From the NCBI GenBank assembly GCA_003194525.1, contig NBIV01000243.1:40380-104379 (forward strand): a stretch of 64,000 nt of DNA, written 5' to 3'. The notes beneath the pieces are model-generated. The model made no database searches. It saw only the letters and a program-made list of their open reading frames with translations, and was not told the origin of the DNA. Source of the DNA: Gracilariopsis chorda. Taxonomy: Eukaryota > Rhodophyta > Florideophyceae > Gracilariales > Gracilariaceae. How positions within the stretch are numbered: position 1 is the first letter of the stretch; every line of letters starts with the position of its first letter. Below, one piece after another: positions 21,226 to 64,000 of this stretch. A program made the translations under genes and the position numbers.

Positions 21226-22170
21226 TGTGGAGCAATATTGTTAGGTGGAAAATCCGTCCAAGGTGTTCGCAGCATTGCTCTCTTGTGAGGTAGGCGCGGC
21301 GACAGAGCCCTCCGTACCACACAGTGTTCGGGTGTAAAACAGAGGTGACGCCCGGCTATACTGACGGAGGTGACACCAAGAATCGGGTTACCAGCTTGTC
21401 AACGTAGTGCACAGGTCCGTGTGAGCGGTGTTCCGGTCCACGGAGAATCCAGAAAGGGAAAAGGGGAAAAGGGGAGTAATCAAAAGGGAAGGTACAACCC
21501 GGCGGCTCGTGCAGAAAACCGATAGAGACCCAGCGGTGGGGAGGTGTTGCTTGTTCAGCCAGGACGGCAAAACTCTATACTGAGTCGAACGGCTATCTGT
21601 TCCCACAATAGAAAGTAACTAAAACGGTAAAAACGGTGAACACTGGGCGAACCCACGGGGTAAGACAGATCAGCGGTCCTTGGTGATACTGTGCGGGTGA
21701 GTATAACGAGATCGAACGCGGTGAAACCCCAGCAGGTGTTGGTCACCTTGCACAGGCGATAGACTCAGAGCCGAGTCACAGCTTGTATTTAATTCATGGT
21801 GAAACGGCAAGGCCGCCCTGCCTTAAGTACTATTGGGTCACAATAGAATAAGAATACTACTACTGTACTGTGCCACACTTGTGGTCCACACACTTGTGTC
21901 ACTTGGAGGCATTGCTGGCCACGGCGCAACACGACACGTGTGAGTCATGCCAACCATGAATAGTATCCGTACGCTTGCCAGGCGTCACTCTGTTCCAAAT
22001 ATCAGAGAGATCACCCACGAGGGTTCCAAAACTACCAATTAAAGTTCATATCGAATCTCACCCAATATTTCCGAGGGTTCACTCATACCAGAGTTGAGCC
22101 GATGCCACGTCGGTATTGAATCATTTATGATCCACTTCGCTTAAATGGTATGCGCGCACGCATTTCTGTA
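21226..22170 (+). repeat. LTR-X copy A
   Basis: 945 bp, from TGTGGAGCAATAT to tctgta (the other copies end tctaca). It aligns over its whole length with copy D (minus strand) and copy C. It contains a purine-rich run (gaaagggaaaaggggaaaag). What follows it matches the flank of copy D, not the internal sequence of copies B and C, so it is a solo LTR. The left flank (ctact) does not repeat on the right (gaaag). Confidence 0.85.
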
Positions 22171-23990: not shown

Positions 23991-24099
23991 CACAATAGAC
24001 ACCGTGTGCATTGGTAGGATGTTACGATATCAAATCGTTTTGTCACTATCTGGATTAAGCCTCTCACGGGTCAGCTGAAGCAGTTAATTGCCCTGAAAC

Positions 24100-26640
24100 G
24101 AAATCCAAAGTGAAAGAAGCGCGCTATCCTTATTATTTGCGGGTTCCTAACCTCCATTTTTACGATAGGCCAACAGCGTTGTTAAACGTTCTAAACTCTC
24201 TGTCAAAAAGCTAAGGTCAGAATGGATTGGCTCTCGTGACACGAGGAGAAGTTGAGGGTGAACGTGTTTCTTCTAAGACTATCAAGAATGTCGAGCAAAG
24301 TTACGGAAATGCTTGGATCAGATTTGAACCATCTCTGGGCATCATGAAGGATCCATTCCTAGTGTTGCTCGACAGAGGTCTCGCCCCTCACCTTTAGTAT
24401 GCTGCTTTCTATGGATGCTTGGAATACGATATATGTTGTGATGCCATGAATCACGTTGGGACACATAGTACGTACGAGTGGTTACCATCTAGCCCTCTTT
24501 GGAACAGAAAACAGATCTGGTCTGATATTCTTGCTCATAGTTTTCCCAATTTGTACGTTTAACCCGCCAACTTCCTGAGCAAAGGTTCATTTGCGACGCG
24601 AAGAGAATATGCAACGTTTGGTTCCCGCAACGTACCCTCATATGCCCAGTCAGGTTTATACGGACACCTAGAAGAGAAGACGAATTTGGTGTTGGGGGTA
24701 AATGAACCCAGGCAAATGGGAAGTCCAGAGGAGAAACTCAAAGAAATTCAGATTCTTCTCGCTGATAAGATTTTTACGTCAGGTCTGAATGTAAATATCG
24801 GGATTGATACAGATGGGTTATCGGTAAGCACCGATTATATCGCAGGAGTCCTTTTTTATGTCCAAGCCCTCAAGTTGCAGCTCTTTTCATCGGGTTTTCA
24901 TGTCCTCTAAAAACCTCCTATACGTCAAGAATCCGTCTCATATGTGCAAGCAAGCATCCGCGAGGACCCGGAAAACAGTCCAGAAGAATGTCGTGGGGAA
25001 CGTGCTCCTTGCCTTGATGCTTTAGTGATGGACGTCTCCGCAGCTCCTATACTAACAACTGGCCCGCATTAAACTGGTGGAAGTATCATCAACGCCCACG
25101 CTAAACTAGGACTACAGATGCCGTGGTGGTGCTACGGTAAACTAATCCGGAGCACGCTAATATTTTCTGAGGACTAGATGCCAAATACATTGAAGCCATT
25201 CTAGCCGGTGATGGGCTTAATGATGAGGCAGATGTCTTGCTGATAGGAGCAAATATTTATGCGGTAAACTCTTATCAACTTTCGCTTTCAGCCACGTATG
25301 CTCCAGGCAAAGAGACTACCGAACGAAAAAAAGGCTCATCAAGATGAGCACATTGGAGCATACCTCGAACCTTTGCCCGCACTTGTGTCAGGACTGGGCA
25401 ATATCAAAGCCAAAGGAGAATCGGTCAGAATCGCGGTAGGATGTCTGGAAGCTGGACTCGTGCTGGATCGGACTGGGCGTGTGAAGCGTTTCGATCTAGT
25501 AAAACTGGAAGAACATGGAGCAACAGCCAATAGATGTCTTGCTCGCCTTGATTTGAATCATTCGAGGCTTCTTTGAACACGCTGTTTATCTTCTTAAGGA
25601 TGTCTCCCAACGGGCAGCAGAAGCTGATGATATTTGTGGAAGACATTTGATGGATAACACGCCCACCGCATGGCAGAGACCGGCGGCATATGTAGACACT
25701 AGTCCTTGCCCTTCCTCGAACCCTCCTATGACTATGGTTCTATGTTCAGCGAATAGATAGCAGATGCGACATAGAAAAGTGGTGTTGGACCCGCCAAAGC
25801 TTTTTTCAACTGAAAGGCATACATTTACGGACATGAACAGGATGGGAAACGTGATTATGGTACGTTCAGGACTATGTTATTTTAGTTTTTAACTGGGCTG
25901 TTAAAAGGATTAACAATTTGGAACACCATTTGGGCGATATTCATGTACTTTATGCTAACAAAGATGCCCTGCTACTTGCGGTCAGAGAAAAAAGCAAGAA
26001 TGATATTATTAGAGCATCTAGTAGATTTTCTTGGCATTGCAGGAGACGCGGCTTCAGAGCGAAAGCCGAAAGGTCGTGAAGCAGTACTTTGTATGGAGTT
26101 ATGAACAAGACGGTTCAACCCATAATGGGCGGTAGTGACGCTCCAGGACGGTGCAGGAGAAGCATTTGAAGTCTCCTTCAGAATGATATCACTGATGGAA
26201 TGAGGTGGAACGGAGTGTCATGTCGACAAATATATGTTCTAACAAACGACAGAGCGCTACGTTGTCGATGAGCATAACCGCAAACTTCTAAGCACGTAAT
26301 CAACAGTGGCGTTCAAGTACATATCAGCATTACTTTTACTCACGACATGAAGGTAGAAATGTGTCATATGGTGTTGAATTAGATACTGACTAGAGATGAA
26401 GAGACTTCTTTTCGAAGTGCAAGGTTTGTTCAAGATTCTTGGAAGCCGTAGGCCGCGTTATACGGAGCGATCCGAACAAAGAAACTTTGAGATCGATTTG
26501 AGAACAGCTTGATGCCATGGACTGAGAAATCGAAGGTGTGTTGCGTTGATGTTGAGAAATTCTACAATAGTGTGCTTATAGAAGTTCGTGTCTTTTACCA
26601 AAAATGAAGGGATAGTACACGGGCAAAAAAATGGACTGTA
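24100..26640 (+). pseudogene. Unknown gene of the inverted arms, left copy
   Basis: Plus-strand coding-like blocks: 24110-24560 (YPYYLRVPNLHFYDRP, then YEWLPSSPLWNRKQIWSD), 24575-24908 (KEIQILLADKIF, then NIGIDTDGLSVSTDY), 25180-25580 (YIEAILAGDGLNDEADVLL, then SVRIAVGCLEAGL), 25590-25880 (FEHAVYLLKDVSQRAAEAD) and 26100-26550. Frames shift and stops occur between blocks. The right arm (46040-48590, minus) has the same blocks, often without the same stops, so the ancestor was one long protein, perhaps 800 residues or more. No known family was recognised. Confidence 0.5.
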
Positions 26641-31472: not shown

Positions 31473-32419
31473 TTTGGAGCAATATCCTTAGGCGGGAAAT
31501 ACTCCCAAGGTGTTCGCAGCCTTGCTCTCTTGTAAGATAGGCACAACGACACGGCTCTCCGTACCACACAGTGTTCGGATGTAAAAAAGAGGTGGTTTCG
31601 GGCTATAAAGACGGAAGTGTTACCGAGAATCGGGTTACCAGCTGGTCAACGTAGTGCACAGGTCCGTGTGAGCGGTGTTCCGGTCCACGGAGAATCCAGA
31701 AAGGGAAAAGGGAAAAAGCGGAGAAACCAAAAGGGAAGGTACAACACGGCGGGTCGTGGGGAAAGCCAAAAAACACCCGGCGGTGGTGGGTGTTTTCTTG
31801 TTCAGCCAGGACGGCAAAACTCAATACTGAGTCGAACGGCTATCTGTTCCCACTATAGAAAGTAACCAAAAAGTTAAAAACGGTGAACAATGGGCGAACC
31901 CACGGGGTAAGACAGATCAGCGGTCCTTGGTGAAACTGTGCGCCTGATTATACCGAGACAGATTAAGGTGAAACCCGAGCAGAAGTTGCCCACTTCGTGC
32001 AGGCGATAAACTCAGAGCCAAGTCACAGCTTGTCTTTACTTCAGGGTGAAACGGCAATGCCGCCCTCCATTAAGTATTATTGGGTCACAATACAATAAAA
32101 ATACTACTACTGTACTGTGCCACACATGTGGTCCACACACTTGTGTCACTTGGCGGCATTGCCGGCCACGGCGCAACACGACACATGTGAATCATGCCAA
32201 GCATGAATAGTATCCGTACGCTTGCCACGCGTCCCTCTGTTCCAGATACCACAGAAATCACGCACGGAGGTTCCAAAACTAGCAATTAAAATTCATATCG
32301 AATTTCACCTAATATTTCCGAGGGTCCACTCATACCTGACTTGAACCGATGCCACGTCGGTATTGAATCATTTATGATATACCTCGCCTAGAGGGTATGG
32401 GCGCACGCCTTGCTCTACA
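31473..32419 (+). repeat. LTR-X copy C (5' LTR of an X element)
   Basis: 947 bp, from tttggag (TGTGGAG in the other copies) to gctctaca. It is followed by an internal region shared with copy B. The matching 3' LTR was not found in the window. Confidence 0.82.
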
Positions 32420-46039: not shown

Positions 46040-48590
46040 GAGTAAACCGTTTGCCCTTTTTCCTTTGCTCGTATACTATCCCTTCGTTTTTGTCAAAAGA
46101 CACGAACTTCAATAAGCACACTATTGTAGAATTTGTCAACAACAACGCAACACACCTTCGGTTTCCCAGTCCATGGCATCAATCTGTTCTCGAATCGATC
46201 TCAAAAATTCCCCATCGGGATTGCTCCCCAAAACGGGGCATGTGGCTTCCAAGAATCTTGAACAAACGTCTTTGCACTTCGACAAGAAGTCTCTTCATCT
46301 GTAGTTAGTATCTCATTCAACACCATATGACACATTTCTAGCTTCATGCCGTGCCGAGAAGTAATGTTGATACGTACTTATACGCCGCTACGATTACGTG
46401 CTTAAAAGTTTGCAGTTATGCTCATCGACAACGTAGCACTCTGCCGTTTGTTTGAACACAGAGTTGTTGACATGACCTGCCATTCCACTTCACCCCATCA
46501 GTGATATCATTCTGCAAGAGACCTCAAATGCTTCTCCTGTACCGTTCTGGAGTCTCACTTCCACCCATTTTGGGCTGAACCGTCTTGTTCAAAACTCCAT
46601 ACGAAGTACTGCTTCATGACCCTTTGATTCTCGGCCTGCACCCCCGTCTCCTGCAACTCCAAAAAACATCTACTATAGATGCTCTAATATTATCATTTAT
46701 GCTTTCCTCTCTGACGTCAAGTAGCAGGGCACCTTTGTTAGAATAATGTACTTGAATATCGCCCAAACGGTGTTTCACACTGCTAATCATTTTAACCGCC
46801 CAGTTAACTCCTAAAAAAACATAGTTCTGAACGTACCATGATCACGTTTCCCATCCTGGTCATGTCCATAAATGTATGCGTTTCAGTTGAGAAAAGCTTT
46901 GGCGGGTCCATCACCACTTTTCTATGTCGCATCTGCTACCATTCGCTCACCATAGAACCATAGTCACAGGAGACTTCGAGGAAGGGCGAGATTTAGTGTA
47001 TACATAGGCCGCCAGTCTCTGCCATGCGGTGGGCAGGTTATCCCACAAATATCTTTTCTCCCAGCTCATCAGCTTCTGCTGCCCGTCAGAAGACATCGTT
47101 TAGAGGATAAACAGCGTGTTCAAAGAAGCCTGGAAATATTCCACTAAAGTTTAGCAACACATCTATTCGCTGTTGATCCATGTTCTTCTAATTCTACTAG
47201 ATCGAAACGCTACAAACGCCCAGGCCGATCCAGGACGAGTCCAGCTTCCCGAAATCCATTACGATTCTTACGGACTCCCCTTTAGCTTTGATATTGTCCA
47301 GTTCTCACACAAAAGCAGGCACAGGTTCGAGATACGCTCCAATGTGCTCATCTTGATGAGCCTTTATTTTTCGTTCGGTAGTCTCTTTGCCTGGAGCGTA
47401 CGTGGCTGGAAACGGGAGTTGGTAAGAGTTCGTCGCATGAATGTTTGCTAATATCAGCAAGACATCTGCGTCATCATTAAGCCCATCACCGGCTGGGATG
47501 GCTTCAATGTATTCGGCATCTAGTCCTCGGAAAATATTAGCCAGCTCACGATTAGTTTACCGTAGCACCACCACGGCATCTCCAGCTAGACCTAGTTTAG
47601 CATGAGCGTTGCTAGTACTTCGACAAGTCCAATGCAGACCAATTGTTAATATAGGAGCTGCTCAGACGTCCATCACTGAAGCATCACGACAACGAGCACG
47701 TTCCACACAACATTCTTCTGGACTGTTTTTCAGATCCTCGTGGATGCTTGCTTGCACATATGAGACGGCTTCTTGACGTATAGGAGAGTTTTAGGGGACA
47801 TGAAAACCGGATGAAAACAGCCGCGACTCGAGAGCTTTGACATGAAAAGAAACTTCTGCGATATAATTGGTGCTTACCGATAACCCATCTGTATCAATCC
47901 CAATATTTAAGTTTAGAGACGTAACAATCATATCAGCGAGAAAAATATGAATTTCGTTGAGCTTCTCCTCTGGACTTCCCATTTGCCTGGGTTCATTGAC
48001 CTCCCACACCAAATTCGTCTTCTCTTCTAGGTGTCCTTATAAACCTGACCGGGCATATGAGGGTACGTTGTGGGAAACAATCGTTGCATATTGTCTTCAC
48101 TTCGCAACTGAACCTTCGCTCAGGTAGTTGGGGGCGTAAACGTACAAATGGGGAAGATTACCAGCAAGAATATCAGACCAGATCTCTTTTTTGTTCCAAA
48201 GAGGGTTACATGGTAACCAATTGTACGTACCATGTGTCCCAACGTGATTCGTGCCATCACAACATATATCGTATTCCAACAATCCATAGAAAGCAGCGTA
48301 CTAAAGGTGAGGGGCGAGACCTCTGTCGAGCAACACTAGGACTGGATCCTTTATGATGCCCAGAGTTGGTTCGAATCTGATCCAAACGTTTTCGTAACTT
48401 TGCTCGACAGTCCTTATAGTCTTCGAAGAACACAGGTCACCCTTAAGTTCTACTCGTGTCATGAGAGCCAATAAATTCTCGCCTTAAATGTTTGACAGAG
48501 ATTTGGAACGTTTACTAACGCTGCTGGCCTATCGTGAAAATGGAGGTTGGGAACCCGCAAATAATAAGGATAGCGCGCTTCTTTCACTTT
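46040..48590 (-). pseudogene. Unknown gene of the inverted arms, right copy
   Basis: Counterpart of 24100-26640. 48282-48097 reads EYDICCDGTNHVGTHGTYNW and LWNKKEIWSDILAGNLPHL without the stop found in the left arm. 48012-47791 has NIGIDTDGLSVSTNYIAEV. 47560-46860 repeats the AGDGLNDDADVL-like, DDICGRHLMDN-like and related blocks. Stops and shifts differ from those of the left arm, so the two copies decayed separately after duplication. No family was recognised. Confidence 0.5.
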
Positions 48591-50521
48591 GGATTTCGTT
48601 TCAGGGCAATAAACTGCTTCAGCGGACCCGTGAGAGGCTTAATCCAGACAGTGACAAAATGATTTGATATCGTAACAGTCTACCAATGCTCACGGTGTGT
48701 ATTGCGCAATCCAGCTTGGAGAGGCCGTTCTGTGGAACTGATTGTAGGTTTGCAACCTTTTCATGCTATGAACGCAAGCCTTGTATGAGTACCGGTGCTG
48801 CAGTAACGTAGGTGACATCCATCTGTTATAGTATAGTTCTACCTAGGTCGGAAATACTGCTGCCGGCAATTGATACAGCGGGTCCCCGGACGAAAGGGAA
48901 TACCATCGTGGGACCACAGCACCGACGAGACCCGTCTGGCCTGTTATGATTCTTCCGTAAGTGAATCTGTTTGAATTGCGCTCGTTTCTTTCTGTGATCT
49001 GATGATAAGTAATACTGGAAGAAAAACTAGGCCCACACCCGGGTGACGAAAACGAAAATGAGCGAAATCGCTAGAGCCAACTACCTGTAGAAGTAAGAGC
49101 CTATACCGATTTGATTGTTTTCCATTTACAAAACTAATGGTGATAGGGAAATAAACTGAGTTGATCCGCACATCGCATTTGCACAAAATGCTGGTCCCTA
49201 ATCGCATCCGCGTATTGAAGACCGTTTGCACAACATTAGCCCTACTTGTCCGATGAAAATGCTGCGATTTCAACCTATAGTACTCGGACATGAGTTCCCA
49301 AGCTGAATGAACTACCACAGATGACGATGGTTGATATGAGTGGAATAGCAATCACCATAAATCTGATTCGAACTCAGACCCGGGAGTTCTGAAGAGTCAT
49401 GTGCACTTCCGTCACGTATAAATACCGATTTTTTGGTGCACTTCTTTCGCTGCCGTTAAATGCACGGCACTCTGGAAGTGAGCGCGCACTTTCTGCTGTG
49501 AAGAAAAGTGGCGCTCTTGCCCTACAGGGCAAAGCGAATTACGAAAGTACCCGCAACCAGTATATCGCGAACACCTCCAAGGTGGGACTGCTCGGGGAGC
49601 TTCCCCTGTGCTTTTTTGCTTCTATAGAGCTCTTGGAGGTGATCTTTACTGCTGTTAGACAAGGAACAGAATCACAGTATCTATGTAACTATGTCTCATG
49701 TAAGCTTTCGCACGCGTACAAAACCGATGTGTTCATTGAGCCAACCGCAAGATTCTGAATTCCTTGTCATTGTCTCCCACGTTTTTGGACAATTCGCTTC
49801 TGTATGTTGAGAGCTCTTGAAAAGTGAGCGCGGATGTGGTTCAGCAATAGAACGGATTCCTGCCAGTGTTCTTAGACGTTTTTGATGTTTTCTACTCTGG
49901 CGAACCTTGTGAACCGGCGTTATGTCTACGAATCAGTAAGGCTATCGTCCCCAGTGTTTCCGGATTGTACCCTGACAATACCATGAGGTCTTCGTTAGGC
50001 AGTGTCACGTTATTGGGGCACGCAGATCTCTCGTTTCCAGGTTCTTGCAATTTGTGGATATTGGGCAGGTGCTTGTCAGGTGCATCTTAGTATGAGATAC
50101 ATTCTTCTGCTTTCCGTTTCGAGCTGACTGTCTGGGTGCTTTCTGCTTTTTGAAGGTAAAGCACAGCAGTGAATATGACGCTTTAAGTGGCTGGAAGATC
50201 CAGGTAGGCTTTCAATGTTCTCTATCAGAGTTTATGGCGTGGCCAGCCCACTACGTGACCTGACAGGTCTCGTTTCTCTCAATGTTGTAACGTCATCTGA
50301 CGCAGGTGGTTCTTCCCAAACACTTTTCTTCTGTACTTGCACCGGTTCTACATGGTTCTTCTCCTCTACATCAAAGGACATGACCGGAGACGCGTTGCGC
50401 TCCGTTCCAGTAGAAATTTGAGGTTGTTTGGTACGAGATTATGACCATCATTGATAGGTTCATCATACTCGGGTGGCTCGTTTCCCATTCGTTCTGTATT
50501 GATGCAATTACAAGACGTCTT

Positions 50522-51467
50522 TGTAGACAAATGCGTGCGCGCATACCCTCTAGGCGAGGTGGATCATAAATGATTCAATACCGACGTGGCATCGGTTCAA
50601 CTTAGGTATTAGTGGACCCTCGGAAATATTGGGTGAAATTCGATATGAATTTTAATTGGTAGTTTTGGAACCTCCGTGGGTGATTTATGTGATATCTGGA
50701 ACAGAGGGACGCGTGGCAAGCGTACGGATACTATTCATGCTTGGCATGATTCACATGTGTCGTGTTGCGCCGTGGCCGGCAGTGCCGCCAAGTGACACAA
50801 GTGGGTGGAACACAAGTGCGGCACAGTGCAGTAGTAGTATTCTTATTCTATTGTGACCCAATAATAATTAAGGGAGGGCGGCCTTGCCGTTTCACCCTGA
50901 AATGAAGACAAGCTGTGGCTCGGCTCTGAGTTTATCGCCTGCGCGAAGTGACCAACTCCTGCTGGGGTTTCACCGCGTTCGGTCTCGTTATACTCACCTG
51001 CACAGTATCATCAAGGACTGCTGATCTGTATTACCCCGTGGGTTAGCCCAGTGTTCACTGTTTTTATCGTTTTGGTTACTTTCTATTGTGGGAACGGATA
51101 GCCGTTCGACTCAGTAATGAGTTTTGCCGTTCTGGCTGAACAAGCAACACCCCCCACCGCCGGGTCTCTTTCGGCTTTCTGCACGACCCGCGGGGTTGTA
51201 ACTTCCCTTTTAGTTTCTCACCTTTTTCCCTTTTCCCTTTCTGGATTCTCCGTGTACCGGAATACCGCTCACACGGACCTGTGCACTACGTTGACCAGCT
51301 GGTAACCCGATTCTTGGTATCACCTCCGTCGGTATAGCCGGAAGCCACCTCGGTTTTACACCCGAACACCGTGTGGTACGGAGGAACCTGTGGCTGCGCC
51401 TACATCGCAAGAGAGCAAGGCTGCGAACACCTTGGGAGGATTTCCCGCATAGGGATATTGCTCCACA
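50522..51467 (-). repeat. LTR-X copy D, solo LTR with perfect target-site duplication
   Basis: 946 bp. On the minus strand it starts TGTGGAGCAATAT at 51467 and ends gtctaca at 50522. The five bases gtctt stand on both sides (50517-50521 and 51468-51472). This is a clean 5-bp duplication and marks it as a solo LTR left by LTR-LTR recombination. Confidence 0.9.
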
Positions 51468-51514
51468 GTCTTCTGTATAGCATACATAAGTTGTTCTGCC
51501 GGCATCATTATCGC

Positions 51515-51711
51515 TCAATGGTTCGGCGTTTGAGAAAAAATAGCAAGTTCCGGGAGCCGAGCAGCCTCCTGTATCACTTGCTCAATTCTCTGTCGGCTTG
51601 TGTTGTATATCTCATTCCAGCGCTTCGTCTCCCATCCTTTATCAAACCGAAATCTCATTTCACTTTCAATACTTTTCATGGCCTCGAAGTTCAGGCATGT
51701 ATCATTGATAC
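51515..51711 (-). pseudogene. Coding fragment beside the solo LTR
   Basis: A 65-codon minus frame between two stops, strongly helical and charged (ESEMRFRFDKGWETKRWNEI, then RQRIEQVIQEAARLPELAI). It continues after the stop as AIMMPAEQLMYAIQKT up to the LTR-X insertion. The LTR may have landed in or near this gene. Unknown function. Confidence 0.35.
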
Positions 51712-52921
51712 CAGATTAAGACTATAAGTATAGCGGGTCACAAGATTCTCCCCTGAGACGAACATGTTCTTCTTTCTTATCATTTAGACGCCAAATGACA
51801 TCTCCCCCAATATCTTCACGACGTTGCTGCTCCTTATCATGTCCTTCACTTGTACTGGTCTGGGTATTGGCTCCAGTTTTGGACAAAGAATGAGAGCAGA
51901 AAAGTTCTTCATGGAAGCATCTTAAAATACAGAGACTAAGCTGGGTGAAAAGACACCAGAAAGTCTAACAATGATAAACTGGTAGAGATAGACAAATAAA
52001 ACATTCTTTGGACTACAAAGAAGCAGATGATAATTGTAACATCGTCTCAAGAGGTTTAATATCGCACTGTGATGCTCTACAAAATCCATGACATAACTAA
52101 AGAGATTCCTTTTAGAACTTATGAATAAATCCATCTCACAAGATGAATAGAAACAAATTTATTCCCAATCGATATTTATTGGTAACACCACAGCATTATC
52201 AATTGTTTAAAATGCCCAAACTGCAAAAAGAACAAACAAATTGATTTAAAGTCCAACCATGTGCAAGAAGTGGTGAGGCAAGGTACGTTTTGCATTAAAT
52301 ATATACAAACTGAAAGGTACTCTTTTTCAGTGTTGAGTAAGTCGTTGAAAAACTTGCCTACAAATATGTGATTTGTTGTACAAAGTAAAATGTAACTGCT
52401 AGTTTATTTTTAAAACTATTATAACGATTTTGTTTTCCTTTTATGGCTTTTAATTATTTTCCGCTTTCGTTACAGAAAGGTGAATTTGTATTTGTTTTGT
52501 ATGGTTTTGGCTAATATGAGGACTTTTGTACCTTATCATTTTGGTGCAGATACTTTTTACAGGGCCTTGCTGCGCAAAGAGGTTTTTAACGGTGGCAGCT
52601 TTGGTCAATTGCTCGAGATAGATACTAGTAGTACGCAATTATGATACTTTGTTCATAACTGCGAGGGACGGTGTGAATGGCTGTGCCAGCCGATAAGTGA
52701 AACGTGTAGACGTACATGTTTCACTGAACCTGACAGTCAGATTATCAATAAAGCCGCCGGCGGCTCTGGCTGACCTCGTGTGTCGGTCAAGCCGCAAGGC
52801 ACCACCCCCATGTTTTTCAAGATAGAGGGGTGTGGTAACGATATTTGGGGGTATACAGCGTACTTTAAGTATTATTTATGTTAAAAACTTCGAAAATGAA
52901 TGACCCATTTGTTGGTACTTT
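51712..52921. other. AT-rich stretch without a gene
   Basis: Markedly AT-rich from about 51900 to 52640, with only short frames. Nothing supported. Confidence 0.5.
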
Positions 52922-54330
52922 ATGATAAGAGTGTTGTTCCCTGGGACGACGCCGCTCCCATCGCGCCCGCACTCGCGCCTCACCTCCGCCACCCCCACCT
53001 CCGCTGCTGCCTCCGCCTCCGCCGCCGTTGCCGTTCTCGCGTGTAGCAGCAACCGCCTCGTACCATGGCCCTCCCCCACGCGCCCCGTTGCCACCGTACT
53101 GGACTACTGCGCCGGCCTGCATAGTGCGCACAATGCACAACAAGCTCCATCAATTTGACCACGCGTTGCGCAGGTACGCCGCGAATGGACGCCAGTGTCT
53201 CGGCCTCTCTCTCTCTGACTGCATACCTCGTTCAAACGCTCCAGGAAAGCCCAGACGTGGCGGGGCTCGCTGTGCTTTTGGGCGCCGTGCGCCCCCTTCG
53301 CCACGCGCCCAGTGCTTGCTTGGTCGTGCCGCATATCCGCTAGAAGCCTATGAATATATCGCGCCCGCCGCCGCCGCTGGCGGGTGATGGTACGCGTTCC
53401 TAATTTGTGCAGTCGTTTCTCGTCGATGTGGATCTTGTGATGGTGTGAAATGCGCCGCTCTGAACGAAACTGTCGCTATAGCGACAGCTCGCGTGCCGTC
53501 TTCCAAAGGGTTGGGGCGAAAACCCACATGGTGTGTCTAGATGTGCGTGAGAATGGTCAAGGCGATCTTGGTCGTGACTATGGACGACCAGTGTGGCGTT
53601 TCAGACGCGTTGTCGGGAGAGGTGTAAGACCTGTGCAAACTCATCTCGCTCACCAAGCACTACATTGAGCAGGGAGCTGACGAAATCTTCTTTCTGAATA
53701 TCACTTCGTTCCGCGGGGAGCTACTGGGAGAGGCAGCAATTGTGGAAGTGCTGCGCCAGACGTCGTACCATGTGATTGTGCCGCTCTGCACTGGCGGCGG
53801 CATCGGGGGTTACACTGACGGCGTGGGACAGCGCTGCGGTGCGTTGGATATGGCGGCACTTTGCTTTCGCACCGGTACGGATAAAGTATCGGTGGGCAGC
53901 GACGCCGTGTACGCGGCTGAGCGTTTTGGGTCGGGCGGCGGCGTGACATCCGGGTCATCTTCTATCGCGCAGATTTCGAATCTGTCCGGCACGCAAACAG
54001 CGAGGGTTTCAATCAACACGCGGCGCGTGCGTGTGGCAGAGACATGTTGCTTCGACACCATCCAGAACGCGGACGGGCGATGCTGTTGGTAGCAGAGTAT
54101 GGTGAAGGGTGGACGCACGTCGATGCAGCTGGCACGGGCCGTGCAGGCGCTGAGCGCCATCGAGGTCCTGCTCAACTCGATTGCTTCGACCTACAACTAA
54201 TATGGCTGGTATGCCACATGAAAACGACCGGGACCGTCCTGGTGATCGGCAGTTCCTCAATTCCTGGGAAATGCCACTATTGCGTGTCGTTCGCTGCGTA
54301 CATACCCATCAGGTTTCATCAAAGCTACTT
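52922..54330 (+). pseudogene. HIS7: Imidazole glycerol phosphate synthase (fused HisH-HisF), decayed copy
   Basis: In eukaryotes one protein carries a glutamine amidotransferase (HisH) and a cyclase (HisF) for histidine synthesis. Here an Ala/Ser/Pro-rich N-terminus at 52922, possibly a transit peptide, leads to the HisH start VATVLDYCAG (about 53090). After a gap come ALRRYAANGRQCLG (53160) and, in another frame, ESPDVAGLAVL and LVVPHI (53245-53343). The nucleophile Cys motif GICVG is lost. HisF begins at VCLDVREN-GQGDL (53530), shifts to VVT, has a stop near 53627, then is open from EQGADEIFFLNITSFRGE (53665) through PLCTGGGIGGYTDG and KVSVGSDAVYAAE. In VSINTRRV the catalytic Asp of VSID is Asn. 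MVKGGR, FDLQLI and VLVIGSSS blocks follow in shifting frames to about 54300. The HisH middle (about 60 residues) is missing. Confidence 0.85.
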
Positions 54331-55789
54331 CTCTAACGCAAGAGATAAGCAGCCCTTCAGATACACCTCCTAAAGCATTTTGCTGACTCAAGAGGCGTTT
54401 AGATCTACACATTCAGCGCATGGTCAGGGGATTTCCAAGATTTGCTAACCGCTCTCTTAGTACAGCTATATGTGCGATCCATTCGTCCTTGCTCGTCTTC
54501 AATGCTTACTCAAGGAATCGGAGTTCTCGGTCTACTACGGAAAGCAAGGGATTGTGCAGACCCCATACAATCTTATCAGGCTACCCGGTGTGTGATTGAC
54601 AACTTATTATGGATAAGAACACTTCACAACTACGTGTAGGTATAGGACAAATTTGCTGACGGTAAGCCGTCGCTGCCCTACTTGTCTTTCGATGCTTGGA
54701 CGATATCTACCCTTTGGTAATACGTATTGATGCGTACCCACGGGCAGCCAACCACAATCGTGACGGTACGATCTCCAGAAAATATCTTCACTTCGAGGCT
54801 CTTACCATGTGGTAGCCGTAATCTTCTCCCCGCCACGCACCGATTTCTTGATCGTGCAAAGCGCGTCTTCTTTTCTGCCTCTTACAAGCAATTGCTCAAC
54901 GCCGGCACTCCTCGTCGCCGAATTTCTATCCCTTGTTCACATACTGCGCAACCCACCCTCTTTGATTTCATTTGCGTCCGCTTGCCTCCGAAGCAATCCC
55001 GTGGGCAAAATGTGCAAGTTTAAGACCATGGTTACGAGAAGTGGGAAAAAGTACCTAACGCACATCGATTGTGGGAAGTCTAGCTGTCTGGACTCAGCGA
55101 AATACAAGCCCCAACGCAATTCAAGAGCTTAGTTTCCTTGGCTTCCTTTCCTCACACTACAACTACGGTCGAGAAATTCGCTTTTGAATCAAGAATATGT
55201 TCGATCTCGATCCTTTAGGTACCCACGGTCCTCTTTTCGGTACTGATTTGAGAATCGAGCAATTCAGCACAGGAAGAGTGGCGAGTTAATGGGTTTACTG
55301 CACTTGCTTGGCGGTAAGGTTTCCTGCGGAGGTCCATTGACTCTTGCTATTTCGAAATACGTACATCGTCTGTGCCATAGTTCATTCGTAACAATTTGAA
55401 TCTGAAAGAAACTCTGCATGAAACTGCGGTCAATAAACATTTAGCTCCAAAGTTCATTTACACTGAACACAGCTATTTCTTCATCTTCATTGTAGGTCCT
55501 TGATTCCTAACGACGACAAAGATATAAGGGTAAAATCACTTAGTCAAAGTTACTTTTCTCTCCACAGGAAACCAAGGAATCTCTGCGGCCACTCTCTGAT
55601 ATGTCGTTGACGGACTTACCTCTTCGCTCGCGCAAACTTGGCGAGTGTTCTCTCCTTGCTTGCTTTGCCAACTGATTTTGTAGTACGTAGTGATCAACGT
55701 CCGGCTTTGCCCTGCAAGAGCAGTTGCACAAAGTGCTATTTCATTCTGTCAACGTGCTGACGCCCGCTGGGCCTGGCTAATTCTTCTCT
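54331..55789. other. No gene recognised
   Basis: Plus frames at 54727-55132 overlap each other in two phases and show no motif. Nothing else was seen. Confidence 0.4.
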
Positions 55790-57052
55790 TCATACGACTC
55801 CCGAGAGACCATAAATGTAAGGTCTCGTGGAGACGAGAGCTTCGGTGTTCTTCGGACGTTCGAGTGGAGGTCTGAAGTCCAGTTCGTGGCTGCACCAGAC
55901 ACTACCAACCTCCGTAAATATCGAATCAACGCTTCTGAGATGTCTCATCGCATACACGCGGAACATATCGAAGTCTATCGTATCTCCCAATATATCACGA
56001 AGAACAGTTTCCAATCGGTTTATGAGAGCGTCCATGACGTCCGGGAGCGGCCGTTTGAGCATCCAAAGTTGTATCTTTACCCGACTCCTCCCGTTCCCCT
56101 CTTTTCGCCCATACTTCCGACAAGCTTTTTTCGTGCCATCAATAACAGCACCATGAGCGACACCGAGTGACTTTTCAAGACAAGAGGCAAGACAATCAGA
56201 AGAAAGCTCCGCCATTGGATCCCAAGAGTCGAAGCGCAATACTTTGCGGTTCTTGCAGTCTCGGTCAACCTTTATCCGGCTCTCAACGAAAGACAGGAAA
56301 CAACTTGCTTCATCTCCTGCGCATGCACTTGCTTCTTTGGCTTGATACGCACATCTCAGTATATACTCGGATATAGCACACATATGAATAACAAGTTCTT
56401 GCATTCTTGCGAGTGTATTGTCTTCAAACCACTTCTTTGCAATTGTTCCGTCGCTTCTGCCCGGGCTGAAGAGAGCTATTGCATTCTCGGGCAAGGAGAA
56501 GCGATGTACCCTCCTATCGCCAACCACCATATTTCGTCCATACAACAACTTTAAACCGCTGTAGACGATCCTAGAGGAGGGATAGCGAGACATGGCGTCA
56601 AAAATGTTCCTTCCCCGGCCTTCTCCTGGGAGTTTCGCCGACAGGGCACAAACGTTCTCCCACATCCTAGTCTCACCCTTCCAGTACTTCGAGCCATTCA
56701 TCAAAATGCGCACGTCGTACTGCTTGACAATCTTTTGAGCAAAGGACCGCGCGTTGTAGAAAGACTTTGTGTTCTGATTTCTCAAGAGGCCATGCGCCTC
56801 TTCAGTTTCTTCGACTTCCGCATCCATACGTTCTCGTACCCAGCGCACAACATCTGGAATCGATTCAGAAAGTACTATCTTCCGTGGTTGCAGTTCTTTT
56901 CTAGCTGCGTTTTCACGAACCTTCACATTACTGATGATCCTCTTCCTACCACTCTTTGTGATCTTCTTCGACACTCCTTTCCAGGCAGTTGCACCTTTCG
57001 TATCGCTGTTTGAGGCCCTTGCTCTTTCTTGTGCCATGCCTCTCTTCCTCAT
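55790..57052 (-). CDS. Orphan protein of 420 residues, intact
   Basis: One uninterrupted minus ORF from ATG 57052 to the stop at 55790, without introns; open length far above the local background. The first 60 residues are basic (KKITKSGRKRIISNVKVREN), suggesting nucleic-acid binding. The rest is mixed helical, with several Cys (HMCAISEYILRCAYQAKEAS) and a C-terminal FDMFRVYAMRHLRSVDSIF segment. No transmembrane segment or signal peptide was seen and no family was recognised. It is divergent from the tyrosine-recombinase gene at 59274, with 2.2 kb between. It could be a partner protein of that gene, or a host gene. Start choice is uncertain, as the first in-frame Met was taken. Confidence 0.7.
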   Translation of the reverse strand: MRKRGMAQERARASNSDTKGATAWKGVSKKITKSGRKRIISNVKVRENAARKELQPRKIVLSESIPDVVRWVRERMDAEVEETEEAHGLLRNQNTKSFYNARSFAQKIVKQYDVRILMNGSKYWKGETRMWENVCALSAKLPGEGRGRNIFDAMSRYPSSRIVYSGLKLLYGRNMVVGDRRVHRFSLPENAIALFSPGRSDGTIAKKWFEDNTLARMQELVIHMCAISEYILRCAYQAKEASACAGDEASCFLSFVESRIKVDRDCKNRKVLRFDSWDPMAELSSDCLASCLEKSLGVAHGAVIDGTKKACRKYGRKEGNGRSRVKIQLWMLKRPLPDVMDALINRLETVLRDILGDTIDFDMFRVYAMRHLRSVDSIFTEVGSVWCSHELDFRPPLERPKNTEALVSTRPYIYGLSGVV

Positions 57053-59230
57053 GTCTAGACAATGGATTGCAGGACTCCTTTCTTATCACTCTGAACAAGT
57101 CGACTTCCTTCATGCCAATGAATTGCTCGGTTCTGCACATCGTGAGCGCTATATGACATGGGAGGCTGTGGCTTTCAGCGAATTACGAGGAGCGTGCATA
57201 TCTGCAAGGCCTTGCGAACTTTCATAGAACGCCCCTTACGGGCGTATAATTTGCGTTCGAAATGTGATGACAGTTCAGTCCCAAGAAGCTCAGAAAAAAC
57301 TCAAGAAAACGTTCGTTGGAGAAATGATGCCGGCCAGCCTGTCCCAGCAATTTTTCAATGTATGTGTTGGTACGGGGCGTGATCAAGAGGTGTTGTTGGA
57401 GATGGTTGAACTGGCTCCAGCCACCTCCCAAGACCCCCACAGAAAGCGAGCGGTACGCACTAAGTAATGCCAACGTCTTTCTCTCTTTACCTCTCGGCTG
57501 GCTCGGACATAAGCGGAATGCTTCTCGAGAGTTCGTGGTCCCAACCCTGCCCCAGACATCGCTCAATATAGCGGCTGGAGCGCACTGTCTTGCGGTACAC
57601 TGCAGTGAGCCGTAAACTGACGACGCGCAGCTGCTAGGTCAAAGGCTCGGTCTGACCGTCCCTTCCTTGCACTGGATAAAGCTTTATCATGATGATGATC
57701 ATCATCTACCTATCGATAACGATTTTGCAGTGATGAGGAGAATGCAATCATGATCTTCTCAAGAGCAGAGCGCATTTGGTCGTAACTTTCTTCGATGTCC
57801 TGCAAGCAGGTGAATGAGAAGGACGAGAACAGTCAAACAAGAGACAATTGGGGATGATTGTCGATAACCAATCCCGATCACACCGGAGAGTATTTTCAGG
57901 ACATGACTCTTTCTCATTATGCCGGAATTATCATCATCATGTTCAGTAACTGCTCGCCGTTTCGCCTCCTCCAAAGGGACACTATTTTCATGTCAACTTC
58001 AAAGCGGTATGGTTTCGCGTTGAAAGCGTTGACATTGCAGTGCCTGTGATGGGGTACCCGGTAGTACAAGGCTCCGTGTTGAAAAATGAGCAGTGGTCAG
58101 TTAAGCACCACAAGTGCCAAGTGTTGACATGCGACCAACCCGCGTGGTCTCTCACTGCAGCCCCCTTTTGCTTCCCTTTAGAAGGGCCGTGGCTCCCTCG
58201 TTCACGAAAGTTCCTAGCAATCTTCGCGGGAGAAGCAAGTCATTTCGGAAAGGGAATACACCTACTTTCGTTGGAGGTAGAGGGCTAGCCGTGGCCTCTA
58301 GGGTTGGTGTACGGCACATGCTTTTCTCATCGTCGGGTAACGGCACCGTTGGTACCGACGGTACCCTGGGCACTGGTAATGAATTGAGGCTGTTTACCTG
58401 TGCGCAACTCGTGCGATCAGAATGTGGTGATGCGGTCACAACGTGGTATAATGCCACGTGGTGATGTGGAGAGCCTTTGGTTGATGGAGCCACCAATATA
58501 CAGCTAGCTGTATTTCGCCAACGCAGGATAACTCGCGCGTTCTATGTCCTAAACCGCCCCCTTTGCTACGAGCGTGCTGAAAACGTGACCCTCGTGGAAC
58601 AAACTCTCGTGCGTGAGGAACAATCGGCCAAATCACTCACAAGCAGAGTTCATACTGTCATCAGGCGACGCTGCGCAAGGAACAAAACGCTCTGAGCTTT
58701 TTGTACTGCATCATAAAGGAGCAGGATTAGCGTATCCGTCATCTTTTCAGGGGCTCCCCAGATAAACCATCACTTTCTTGGCATCCCGAGCGGGGATGAC
58801 AGTGGCCCGAAAGGTTGGACGTATCAGTTGCTGTGCATCAAACGCAACGACGTATACTCAAATGCATTGAAGCACTTTTGAACGCGTTCTTAGAAGACTT
58901 GTATGGATCATCTTTGATCTCACGCAAGAGCTTTTCCGGTGAGTGCACGTTCACACCCACTAGGGTTGCTCTCTCTGACGCACATGGGAAGATTCTACCG
59001 TTGCAACAAGAGCCCGACGCAGCTTTCTGCTACAAAGTGGGGCTGAATTTGTGTGGATCCATTCCGACGCTCCCAAAATAGCACATATCAGGATACTTTT
59101 TAACCAATACTTGTGCAGTTGCTTCCGAGTGAAGATTTTCCGACAGGTGCTTTGCCGGGAGAGATCAAGGTTCAGATATTGCCATGGCATATCACGTGTT
59201 GGGGGGGCTTCGTGAAGAAGTCAACCTCTC
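57053..59230. other. Intergenic region between two divergent genes
   Basis: Only short or shadow frames. A gat/cat-rich palindromic run lies at 57690-57710. It may hold regulatory sequence for one or both flanking genes; only the TATA box at 59231 is recognisable. Confidence 0.4.
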
Positions 59231-59238
59231 TATATAAG
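59231..59238 (+). promoter_or_regulatory. TATA box of the tyrosine-recombinase gene
   Basis: The octamer tatataag ends 35 bases before the ATG at 59274. Transcription starting about 30 bases downstream would give a very short leader of some 10 bases. The close spacing supports 59274 as the start. Confidence 0.6.
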
Positions 59239-59273
59239 CGTTCTAGTGCAAGTCCCCACGCTCTCCCGTATAG

Positions 59274-61085
59274 ATGGCTACCCACACTGCCCACGAGATC
59301 CTCGATCATTCCAAGAGACTGTCTTGTTCGTCTTCAACACCAGCCCACATTTCTCCTGTTCACTTTGCAGGCATGGACGCCATATCGTTCGAGGAATTCA
59401 AATCTGTGCATGATCTGCCTCACGAATATGATGCAGCTACCCCTCAACACAGTTTGCGCTGCAGGAGCACAGAAGCTGTCACCCTGAGATCCGTTGGGGA
59501 TATGAAGCTACGTATCCGCCCACAACTCAGGAAGAAGTCATCACGGAAGAAGCTGTCGAAGATGTCGAATTTATGCTTCAGGTCTACCAAAGGACTCACC
59601 TCAGACACCACCGACCTTGTCCACGAAGAGCACCAAACGGTAAATGGCAGCAATGGAGGCGATGTATTGCTAGATCACCATGATGATGATGAATTTATAT
59701 CGGCCGTCGCTGAATCGGAGGGGATATCATTGTATGCTGAGTTGAAGGGCACTTCTCTTCTGGAGAGAAGCTACGAAAGTCGTTGGTATGAGCAACTAAG
59801 GCATTTGGAAAAGTGTCATCCCAAGTTGTTTGAACTTCTTGAAGTTCGTGATGCGGGCCCCGGGACATTCTACTTCAAGGGGATTGGAGCTACTGTGAAG
59901 AACTGCCTTGGACTGCGAAGGGTTTACGAGACATACTACAAACCAAGGCTGCAGAACAACGGAAAAGGAGCGGCAGCGTTTACGCATCTCTCGACAACCG
60001 TCTCCCAATTTTTGAGATGGGCTATCTGTACTTCTACGTGCTCGAGAAAAGACGTTTGGAAGGAGCATGTTTTATTCAGAGCTTTAGCAGATCAGAAGGT
60101 TGTTAACAGATTCATCGAAATGTTTATGTTGCGAAGCTCCCCAGGCACAGTAAAGAACAGAATTACGTCTATGAAAAGAGTTTGCGACGTTGGGGTTATA
60201 ATATCAGGAGACACAGCAATTGGAATGAGGCTCAAACTGGTTTTGATCGTTCTGCAGCACATGGAAAATGCGTCCAGGTGCGCTTATCGCAAACGCTGTC
60301 AAGCAAAAAAGGACTTGATCAATCGATCCGTGCCAAGACATCTCGATCTCATCAAGAGGCGAGCTCTGGGCGCGCTTAATTTCACGATGCGCTCCTTCTG
60401 GCATCGTAAACAAAGGAGCGGTACTGATGCGGCCAGGAAAAGCATGCGCTCCCACCTGCAGATCTGGAATATGAATTTCATGGGCTTGATTATGCTGGTG
60501 TCAGGCGGACAGCGACCGCAAGTCTTTAGTGGACTTCAACTCCCGAACGAGGAAGAATTCCAGCAGCTGACATTTCAAGCCGAGCAAAGCTCATATATTG
60601 AACTAAGAACTGGGACTGAGAAACGCCCTCGCTATATTGACCTACCTTTCATGATTTTACCGGTAACGGTAATGCCCTACTTAACCTTTCATGTCAAGTA
60701 CATGCGCCCTGAGATTCAAGAAGCGGCCGGAAGAAGTGATGAAGGTCTGTTCGAACCACTCTTCATTGATAGCAAGACTGCTTTGGGTTTCAAACCTTCG
60801 CAAGTGACTAGAAGACTGCAGTTGTTTTTGTCATCTCACGGGATTGAACGTGGTTGCGTTACCTCGATGGACCTACGCAGAGATTATGCGACGAGAATGC
60901 TGAGAAACTACCGTCAGAAGTGTATCTTCTCTAATCTTACTGAAAATGCGTTCCTCGAAAAGTTGGCTCAGCAGATGAATACATCAGTAGAGCAGCTCAA
61001 ACGAACGTACGTAGCTCATTCGTCGAAGATCATCTCTGAAACCGCGGAGGTAGTTAAGTATTGGGGCGCAGTTTTGGATAGCTAG
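59274..61085 (+). CDS. Tyrosine-recombinase-like protein, 603 residues, intact
   Basis: One intronless ORF. Residues 1-165 are low-complexity, acidic and Ser-rich with a basic patch (KKSSRKKLSK). About 170-350 is a helical region like a SAM-like core-binding domain (LSTTVSQFLRWAI). About 395-600 is the catalytic domain: SGGQRPQV with the first Arg at 414, a possible beta-strand Lys at 450 (TEKRPRYIDL), MDLRRDYATRML with Arg 535, and KRTYVAHSS with the nucleophile Tyr 579. In most family members the box-II residue at 532 is His and box III is GH; here they read Met and Asn-Thr. It is homologous to the broken gene at 62410-63946. Such enzymes move Crypton- and DIRS-type elements, but no RT or terminal repeats were seen here, so a Crypton-like or domesticated gene is more likely. 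Confidence 0.78.
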   Translation: MATHTAHEILDHSKRLSCSSSTPAHISPVHFAGMDAISFEEFKSVHDLPHEYDAATPQHSLRCRSTEAVTLRSVGDMKLRIRPQLRKKSSRKKLSKMSNLCFRSTKGLTSDTTDLVHEEHQTVNGSNGGDVLLDHHDDDEFISAVAESEGISLYAELKGTSLLERSYESRWYEQLRHLEKCHPKLFELLEVRDAGPGTFYFKGIGATVKNCLGLRRVYETYYKPRLQNNGKGAAAFTHLSTTVSQFLRWAICTSTCSRKDVWKEHVLFRALADQKVVNRFIEMFMLRSSPGTVKNRITSMKRVCDVGVIISGDTAIGMRLKLVLIVLQHMENASRCAYRKRCQAKKDLINRSVPRHLDLIKRRALGALNFTMRSFWHRKQRSGTDAARKSMRSHLQIWNMNFMGLIMLVSGGQRPQVFSGLQLPNEEEFQQLTFQAEQSSYIELRTGTEKRPRYIDLPFMILPVTVMPYLTFHVKYMRPEIQEAAGRSDEGLFEPLFIDSKTALGFKPSQVTRRLQLFLSSHGIERGCVTSMDLRRDYATRMLRNYRQKCIFSNLTENAFLEKLAQQMNTSVEQLKRTYVAHSSKIISETAEVVKYWGAVLDS

Positions 61086-62409
61086 TTGAGCATTAATCTC
61101 GAGCTGAGTAAATTGTAACCCTTTAGCTACGAAAGCAGAAGCTTATGCGTTATCATCCGCACAGGTTCACTCGCTGACCTGCTGAAAATCATGAACTATC
61201 ACAACACTTGTTACCAACAGAAGAAAACAGTCAGGAACGAGTGAGGAGAAGAGTCGTATACGAACTGAAGCAGTCGTTCGTGATTGAGTATCCGTCAAGC
61301 CAAACCTTTGCCTTCAGATATTCTGATCCGTTTCTCAATCATGACCCCCTCCGTAACACCGCTTCGTCTCCTGTTAATACTACGTGATTTCATGCTACCA
61401 AGGGTAACTTCACCAGTAAAAGCATGCGAACGAAGCTGTAGTATTTCGGATTGCCAGAATTTGCATTCCACGAAGTGTAGTTTCTACGAAGGTAGTTGGG
61501 CACGTGCACCTCGCCTTCACGTGGTGTGCCTGACTCCGATCTCTCTTCACCGGGCGGAGCGAAATGAGAACGCAGACGGATCTCCAACGGAGGCCAAGGA
61601 CGGATGTGAAAAGTTCAAAATCGGAAAAGCAGACAAGCATACGCGTCTTGCAGCTCAATTGCCGCGGTCTTCTTGGCGCCGCCAAACGCGCACAGCTTTA
61701 GAAGCAGGCCCATGTCGTTTTTCGATGCCCGCGGACGAATGCAGCCCGTAGAGATTTGTTAGCTGGTCTCCCAAGGAGCGTAAGAAAAGTATACAACAGT
61801 TAATTCGACATGAGCCACAGAAGTTCTTGGCCTTCCTGAAGAGAGAAAGCTTTTACTGAAAGCTCTCCTTCAGCTTAGTAATAGGAAACTGTTGACCACA
61901 ATAAAGAAGAAGAACGAAGGTAGTTCCATACAAAACTATCGCACACCGAATACCCCTGTGAATTGGTTTCCTACTTTCGAAAACATACAAATGCGCAGAA
62001 TGACGCTCACCTGTCATTATCGAGGAGGGCTCGAACAAAATCAGACCTCCAAAATGAACATGACACATCAGGGTTGCGCTTCGTAGCTGGCTGCGAATCT
62101 GTCATATTGAATGTATGTATCCACACGACCTCAAAGAGCGCACAACCTGCGAAAGCGTGGCGGAAAGGCCCATAGACTTCGTCATAGACCAATCATGTCT
62201 CGAATATCGTACATACGTCCTCTTTGGGAAGCCGGTCGGGTGTCTATGATACCCCGAGACCAAGCCGACGATCGATATTGAACCGATGTAAAGGGTTCTC
62301 GGAAAGGGCTAAACGGATACCCCAAGGGTAGTCGCTCCCATGCCATGCACCAACGGTAAACGGTACGTGTACAACTCTAAAAACCATAAAAGACTGAATC
62401 TTCAACATT
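61086..62409. other. No gene recognised
   Basis: Space between the convergent recombinase genes. A 155-codon plus frame at 61284-61751 has no motif and was not called. No inverted repeats were noticed by eye. Confidence 0.4.
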
Positions 62410-63946
62410 TTAGATCTTCTCTAGACATCTGGCAAGCTCGCTCGCTATAGCTTTATGCTCGGCAGAACCACGAACTCCAACGCACTTCTTCACCTGTGTC
62501 GATGTGGTGTTCAGATGTCGGGCAAGCACGTCGAGAACTTGCCCTTCTGTATGACCATGAAACAGTTCGTTTTCACGAAATCCCTTCAAAAAACGCTCAT
62601 TGCACTGCGTTTTAACGAACTTAGGGAAACAGAAGACATTTCTGGACACCTCTGATCTGCGTACTTGTGAAATTCGTAGGATACATGCCATGGCCTCATA
62701 CGCATACCGCTCCTCGTGCTGACTAACAATGGTCTGGATGTTCCTGTTAGTTGCACTTCATGAGTCAACGATGATATAATTGGAAGTATCACTTTCACTT
62801 GAAATCGAATGAATCTCGCTGACTTGGCCGTTAAACTCACCATAGGAAGTCCTAGAGCCGCTGCTCTTCTTCCGCGAAGCGACTCAAACTGCACTGATCC
62901 GGCCGTGGCAGCGTTTTCAAGAATCCCCTCCAGTTCTTCGTCACCCGGTACTTCCATCTCCGAAATGGTGAGCGGGTTTTGCCCACCTGACCCAATAACT
63001 ACGTACGCAACGAAGGTACATGTCCATTTTGAAACAAAGTTAGCCAATGCGAGACTAGAATATTCAGGGTCGCGGCCGCTTTCGGAGTTGTACTGAGCTA
63101 TCATATCGTTGAGGTCAGCATGAGCAAGCCGAAAGCAAGTCTTAAGCAAGTGCAAGGAGTTAGTCGGTTTCACTTTCTGAGGTGGACGCTTCGCTCCAGT
63201 CTTTCTTAGATATGCACTGATTACATCATCCAAGTATCGTGAGACTCGCTCAAGACTGGCAGATCTACTCATTGATCTTGCGAGTCCGGAGGCAAGCATG
63301 CACACTTTTTTAAGGTGCCTTGCTTTCCGTTGTACGGTTCTCGGGGAGAAACATTCAACATGAAAATCTACGAAACGTTGCACGACTTCTAGAACCGCCA
63401 CAGTGCCAAAGAGAGCATCCATTTGGTATGCATCATTACTGCGGCACACGCCACGAGATATACAGAGTCTTAGAAACTGCGACACAGTGTTTGATAGCCT
63501 TCGGAACACGTCACTACCTTGGGAGAGGTTCCATTGCTCTTTGGGCTTCCAAAACACGTCATGGATCTTCCAAAGCCCTAGGCAGTTATCCGCGGTTGCG
63601 TTGACGCCTTCATATTGCTCTCCATTGCCCCACACTCGGGACAAGCGTGAGAGCTTGGAACTACTCTTGAGAAGAATCTAGGCTGAGATGAGCAAATGCT
63701 CTGCAGATTCTGTAGCCATAAACGCTGTGCTTCACGAGCTCTTGCGTTATGCTTAGAAATCCCCGAATCAGTTTGAGTCTCTAAGCCTGCTGGGCGTTCG
63801 AATTCAGCGCTTCGTTGTGATCGTGTGTTTCTTTCCAGGCTGGCGATCTGAACCAAAGCCGTCTCAACATGCTTCTTGAGGCACTTTCGAGATACCGATA
63901 CCTCATATTCAGGACGTTCTTCAAACCTTCTCTTAGTGCCACGCAT
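62410..63946 (-). pseudogene. Second tyrosine-recombinase-like gene, inactive
   Basis: Three minus frames join into a homologue of the 59274 gene: 63946-63578 (N-terminus, ending NMKAS), 63644-62586 (NCLGLWKIHDVF, SNTVSQFLRLCI, core domain) and 62691-62410 (C-terminus). Two frameshifts separate them. Key residues are gone: SGGQNPLT has Asn in place of the catalytic Arg, and VKKCVGVR lacks the nucleophile Tyr of KRTYVAHS. The box-II region reads SLSSLKRSAMSVF. The N-terminal piece has a CPECG motif absent from the intact copy. It is convergent with the intact gene, and overall similarity is clear but low, so the duplication is old. Confidence 0.78.
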
Positions 63947-64000
63947 CAGCCTGTTGGTATCGTTGGGATCACCAATGGGTAATCGTAATAGCTAATAGGA

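Follow-up and report, generated by a model that had tools for sequence, protein, structure and literature searches.

An open reading frame at positions 59274..61085 (+) of a 64,000-nucleotide stretch of the genome of the red alga Gracilariopsis chorda (the whole stretch is referred to below as the window) appears to encode the recombination enzyme of a multi-gene unit that is, or formerly was, mobile. The unit is found at about a dozen places in the genome, some of which may be pieces of one copy, and we regard this explanation of the data as fairly probable. The gene, here called A, lies beside a paralogue that lacks the active site (B) and a truncated one (C); this arrangement points to a mobile element of a kind not yet described, and not to a single gene that has survived alone. 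The genome searched was a 91.3-Mb assembly of 1081 contigs, in which the window occupies positions 40380-104379 of contig C243 and ends where the contig ends. Seven matches to the phycobilisome linker family PF00427 in this assembly, all of them above the cut-off, are most in keeping with a red-algal host; judged by these matches alone, a glaucophyte would be a less likely alternative.

Gene A and its predicted active site

Gene A consists of 603 open codons, beginning with the ATG at 59274, and no intron is present when it is aligned with its paralogues. A TATA box (TATATAAG, 59231..59238, +) was read directly 36-43 bp 5' of the start codon. A preliminary description of the window, made from its letters only, had reported an intact, intronless gene with its own TATA box, and in this it was accurate. 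The frame is not a product of chance, because five intact 603-codon copies (the window copy included) are present in the genome.

The predicted structure of A shows the two-domain fold of the tyrosine recombinase (YR) superfamily that the preliminary description had anticipated, with the core-binding and catalytic domains at residues ~205-587. Profile comparison also places A in this superfamily, with a match at box II. The catalytic Arg, Lys and Arg and the nucleophilic Tyr typical of these enzymes are found in the proper order (R414, K450, R535 and Y579), while the box-II His (HxxR) and the box-III His/Trp of the superfamily are missing, their positions being occupied by M532 and Q567. The positions given earlier for the two Arg and the Tyr were correct.

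It could be argued that A is not a recombinase at all, but a helical DNA-binding protein resembling one by chance, since the structure model is of modest confidence, the structural search tool warns that helical proteins may reach high Z scores by chance, and no family model matches the protein. Indeed, A is matched by no recombinase model of Pfam, NCBIfam or PHROG, there is no match to Phage_integrase (PF00589) at E ≤ 10, and searches of PDB sequences with A and with the A alignment returned nothing relevant. This explanation is nevertheless highly improbable, considering that structural matches 1-42 of 50 all belong to one superfamily, that the motif order R-K-MxxR-Y is conserved in the A-type paralogues, and that the profile match falls at box II. 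Two hits below the cut-off, Geminin for A (E-value 0.037) and a PHROG of unidentified function for one row of the family (E-value 0.0067), were set aside.

Residue conservation was counted over the eight A-type rows of the family alignment that span both boxes (paralogues ~30% identical); the count leaves out B (L012), C (L018), L030, whose frame ends before box II, and L027, which matches A only from residue 434 and whose residue under R414 is not truly aligned. Because L026 and L029 are 99.7% alike, the eight rows amount to seven nearly independent ones. R414, K450, M532 and Y579 are kept in all eight, and R535 in seven, the exception (L031) being a shortened frame with an R535->L change; the Arg and Tyr residues therefore do not vary freely among the paralogues. 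The box-III position is Gln (Q567) in seven rows and His in one (L033). With Met in box II of every row and no His in box III of 7/8, these residues are features of the family and not signs of decay, so that the word "unusual" applied to them in the preliminary description does not hold within the family. The fold, family and motif of A are supported by structure model and alignment, and as far as fold and residues can tell, A behaves as a tyrosine recombinase. It is probably a catalytically plausible enzyme of a very divergent, probably red-algal family.

Copies, paralogues and selection

At the DNA level the whole of A is matched at six genomic places, of which five have intact frames and one is broken (C453), and a further broken place on C276 matches part of A at 89%, so that the repeat containing A has at least seven copies. 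It should be noted that all genome match counts are lower bounds, and that what is counted as separate places at contig ends may be fragments of a single copy. A protein search with A returned 78 matching stretches, counting both copies and paralogues, which rules out A as a lone survivor. The paralogues, approximately 30-35% identical to A, are scattered over many contigs, their open frames reaching 961 codons, and on four contigs (C104, C173, C70 and C299) two A-type genes lie about 7-17 kb apart; such pairs may mark two-recombinase elements. The preliminary description had presented A as the only open enzyme gene of the window, but A has four other intact, near-identical copies and belongs to a multi-gene unit that is itself repeated.

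Outside this genome, pattern searches for relatives gave 40 matches in a viral contig collection and 56 in a collection of prokaryotic genome contigs, none of which was confirmed, and the literature searches made turned up no description of the family. Within the genome, the PF00589 model matches 13 other places, four of them above the curated cut-off, and none on the contigs listed as matching A. Tyrosine-recombinase genes matching PF00589 were seen at C111:13886, C235:19901, C1:536086 and C417:3379.

Comparison of the rates of nonsynonymous and synonymous substitution (dN/dS) gave 0.16 for L026/L033, 0.19 for L026/L028 and 0.21 for L033/L028, which are the close pairs of a distant group of paralogues (A2), the other pairs being saturated; the A2 rows entered in this set were stop-to-stop frames, and window protein D was entered twice (WINc). 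On these ratios, the A2 group is under purifying selection. In contrast, the five intact copies of A differ by 0-12 changes per pair, with dN/dS values of 0.58-1.44 where defined, and with so few changes constraint is not measurable there. The copies of A may have been homogenized by gene conversion.

The same description had left open whether A is active, recently inserted or domesticated. Activity is possible. Recent insertion is not demonstrable, as the two borders and two breakpoints searched showed no empty site and the copies may have been homogenized. Domestication of a single-copy gene is disfavoured by the multiplicity of near-identical intact copies within a repeated unit. In a broader form, A and its relatives would be a family of algal genes with a cellular role; the purifying selection in A2 and the promoter-like TATA box of A are in line with this idea, and the loss of catalysis in B parallels what is described for domesticated genes derived from Cryptons (PMC3212892). 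We consider even this form very unlikely, because there are many copies, some of them broken, with adjoining repeats and on scattered contigs, and no single conserved locus could be demonstrated.

The repeated unit and its other genes

The part of the unit contained in the window extends over 51484..64000, where the contig ends; its left border (~51468-51484) abuts a repeat of high copy number. Copies that extend far enough show the gene order D (420 aa), A, B (512 aa), C (387 aa), E (261 aa). Open frames of A, B, C and D are present in four or five copies each, and none of the copies at hand has A to E open together.

Gene B is broken in the window, where its limits (62410..63948, -) were set by offset from C458; the open frame at 62586-63677 (-), which the preliminary description did not mention, belongs to this degenerate paralogue of the A enzyme. 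B is 512 aa long in the intact copies (C243 left end, C458, C702 and C453) and is also broken in C518 and C375. It is about 26% identical to A over 426 residues, and in all four intact copies the residues aligned with the active site of A are replaced (R414->N, K450->R, M532->S, R535->K and Y579->V). A QueF hit for B (E-value 0.009, below the cut-off) was set aside.

Gene C, which lies outside the window, has 841 bp of upstream DNA and its first 111 codons in common with A, with 94-95% protein identity in the four open copies. The stretch concerned (~1.17 kb, made up of 841 bp 5' of A and the first 330 bp of A; 58433..59603, + in the window) is thus present twice, its second copy forming the promoter and N-terminus of C. 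At C it is whole in C518, C243 (left end), C458, C702, C453 and C375 (left end), and cut by the contig start in C835. Beyond the shared start, C is a diverged paralogue that ends at the equivalent of residue 335 of A, before the catalytic domain; it is open in C453, C375, C709 and C458 and broken or cut elsewhere. The 1.17-kb repeats could keep the promoters of A and C alike. In the 88% copy on C276 (98241-99566), the DNA upstream of A matches that upstream of C for ~156 bp further than it matches the DNA upstream of A in other copies, which suggests an old exchange between the two promoters.

Gene D (55790..57052, -) showed no Pfam or PDB match to a named function reaching an E-value of 0.1 (best 0.14 and 0.27), and its structure model is too poor for a structural search (predicted local distance difference test, pLDDT, 49). 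Homologues of D occur outside the unit on 14 contigs, three of which (C232, C422 and C479) also hold homologues of A; on C232 the two are ~530 bp apart, and C422 and C479 are alike. Gene E (C458:10653-11438, -; also in C709, C453 and C243 left end) is kinase-like (Pfam Pkinase, E-value 7.8e-12). No reverse transcriptase match was found among the open frames of at least 200 aa inside the unit borders, that is A, B, C, D and E.

The borders of the unit were compared among the available flanks. Left flanks are of three types in six copies and right flanks of two types in seven, and they are combined differently; clean termini and target duplications were not found among the flanks compared. This reshuffling is what would be expected if the unit were an inert, recombination-prone and concertedly evolving segmental duplication spread by ectopic exchange, with A a relic whose copies look intact only through youth. 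Moreover, the forward segment of C709 and C375 (right end) extends from its left end as far as codon 110 of A, where the sequence passes into C; an exchange between the two 1.17-kb promoter repeats, which are direct, accounts for this. The neutral-looking differences among A copies and the breakage of several genes in several copies fit this account as well. However, four or five copies keep an open frame for each of A, B, C and D, the A2 group is under purifying selection, and the catalytic residues have been kept across deep divergence. An inert duplication is for these reasons unlikely, and a unit moved, at least formerly, by A is preferred.

Inversion of the segment carrying A

A segment of 4,929 bp that contains A (57358..62286) occurs in two orientations with respect to its matching flanks. 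It is forward in six places: the window, C243 left end, C518 and C458 (both junctions), and C709 and C375 right end (left junction). It is inverted in five, namely C702 (both junctions), C453 and C375 left end (right junction), and C476 and C276 (left junction). An assembly artefact was rejected, since both junctions lie within a single contig in C702 and one inverted junction is present at each of four other places.

At either end the inversion is precise to the base, nothing being gained or lost, and the junctions share only CA (57356-57357) and TG (62287-62288). Ten pairs of inverted repeats of at least 12 nt were found in 56900-62700, none of them at the breakpoints; the closest pair that flanks the segment (57051-57062 / 62417-62428) is located ~295 and 129 bp beyond them. 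This makes homologous recombination between long inverted repeats unlikely, and the same holds for classical recombinase arms of 11-13 bp. YR-driven inversion of a DNA segment is the basis of the fim system, but the present segment differs from inversions of the FLP (2-micron) and fim type in having no inverted repeat of at least 12 nt at its ends, only CA/TG.

The age of the event was judged from the divergence between C702 and the window. In the left flank, 15/146 positions differ in the first 150 bp, 4/146 in the next 150 and 4/396 at 300-700 bp (Fisher p 2e-6). The right end of the segment shows 8/151 against 10/661 differences (Fisher p 0.01), the right flank 5/150, then 0/150 and 11/701 at 300-1000 bp (Fisher p 0.06), and the left end of the segment 1/151 beside the breakpoint, with no excess. 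A clear excess is therefore confined to the two sides joined at the left junction of the inverted copies, around which C702 and C476 are identical. In addition, five differences within 150 bp of the right flank separate 3/3 inverted from 4/4 forward copies, and the two copies that are more distant, C276 (85-88%) and C476 (93-95% near the breakpoint), have the inverted orientation. The simplest account of these alignments is one old inversion, the inverted state coming first, with exchange having levelled much of the rest, although support for it is uneven.

It is possible that the enzyme A made the inversion. A stronger proposal would be that A is a site-specific invertase flipping its own 4.93-kb segment between short breakpoint sites as a switch. 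The exactness of both ends, the presence of a recombinase inside the flipped segment and the coexistence of both states speak for it, and the raised divergence, being clear only around the left inverted junction, makes the argument from age depend mainly on one junction. On the other side stand the lack of inverted repeats of at least 12 nt at the breakpoints, the concentration of differences left of the left breakpoint, the five right-flank differences that sort the two orientations, and the inverted state of C276 and C476, for which a single old event suffices. We therefore consider such a switch quite unlikely. Frequent, phase-variable inversion in particular was rejected because the two orientations carry different bases next to the breakpoints; this rejection is weakened by the right flank, which alone is not significant and has 11/701 differences further out, and by the left end of the segment, which has no excess. 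It is nevertheless upheld, since the five right-flank differences still sort inverted from forward copies.

Comparison with known systems

To our knowledge, eukaryotic elements based on tyrosine recombinases are few in kind: Cryptons, DIRS/Ngaro and Starships. Cryptons have terminal direct repeats of 4-6 bp and a circular intermediate. As in Cryptons, A is a multi-copy eukaryotic YR gene without reverse transcriptase. It differs from them because the His of their R-H-R-Y tetrad is Met in all eight A-type rows, because neither A nor seven relatives match DUF3504 or GCR1_C of Pfam, and because A sits in a multi-gene unit with dead and truncated paralogues. According to PMC3212892, CryptonS and animal Cryptons also have no GCR1_C, and domesticated host genes of Crypton origin have lost catalytic residues.

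In Starships, as described in PMC12134995, the YR captain (DUF3435, PF11917), located at the 5' end, is the presumed mover of a multi-gene unit. The unit containing A is similar in having a YR as presumed mover, but A has no DUF3435 match in Pfam and its host is not a fungus. A lies between D and B, apparently in the middle of the unit. The unit differs from DIRS/Ngaro in that no reverse transcriptase match was found among its open frames of at least 200 aa.

With XerC/XerD, FimB/FimE and Cre, A has in common the two-domain fold (Xer, Cre) and the R-K-xxxR-Y order, and it differs from them in having Met and Gln in place of two His. The structural matches of A also include the phage proteins MrpR/YopR and SroF (rows 22, 28 and 40-42), the latter a repressor by its PDB title. 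MrpR of phage SPbeta has a YR fold that has lost recombinase function and acts as a DNA-binding repressor, as stated in PMC10516654. Although of phage origin, it offers a precedent for B as a dead YR fold used as a repressor, a role that B could have by analogy. A is placed within the YR superfamily but lacks features tested for Phage_integrase, Crypton, Starship and DIRS.

Neighbouring repeats

Upstream of the unit, a 5.4-kb repeat (window 46064-51467) is 89% identical to window 21226-26627, with 51467 as the common end, and a shorter copy is found at 31475-32419. Its end has 320 first-look candidates genome-wide, and the repeat may be a 5'-truncated non-LTR (long terminal repeat) retroelement. 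Beyond the right border, in one flank type, C458:12435-14525 (+) is an open piggyBac-type transposase of 696 aa (DDE_Tnp_1_7, E-value 2.9e-29), and a similar frame begins at C709:13999 and stays open as far as the sequence examined there extends.

Proposed mechanism and significance

In the mechanism that we propose, A would bind DNA as a tetramer through a two-domain clamp (~205-587), and Tyr579 would attack the DNA backbone with the help of R414, K450 and R535. By cutting and rejoining two sites, A could bring about excision, integration or inversion. B, having lost the active site, and C, which retains the core-binding half and carries a copy of the A promoter, would most likely compete for the DNA sites of A or for A itself; by analogy with phage repressors, it is plausible that both are negative regulators of A. 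Catalysis, transposition and regulation by A, B and C are all inferred.

A further-reaching proposal, which at present we consider doubtful, is that A represents an undescribed superfamily of eukaryotic multi-gene YR elements, characterized by an active recombinase with a His-less active site (R-K-M-R-Q-Y), built-in repressors of the dead B type and the core-only C type, a duplicated promoter and a segment that the enzyme itself has inverted through site-specific recombination.

The A family escapes the domain models tried, replaces both active-site His residues and carries apparent dead and truncated regulators. If active, A would add a lineage to the biology of tyrosine recombinases and test the limits of change in their active site, and its family would account for some of the repeats with which this algal genome is stocked.
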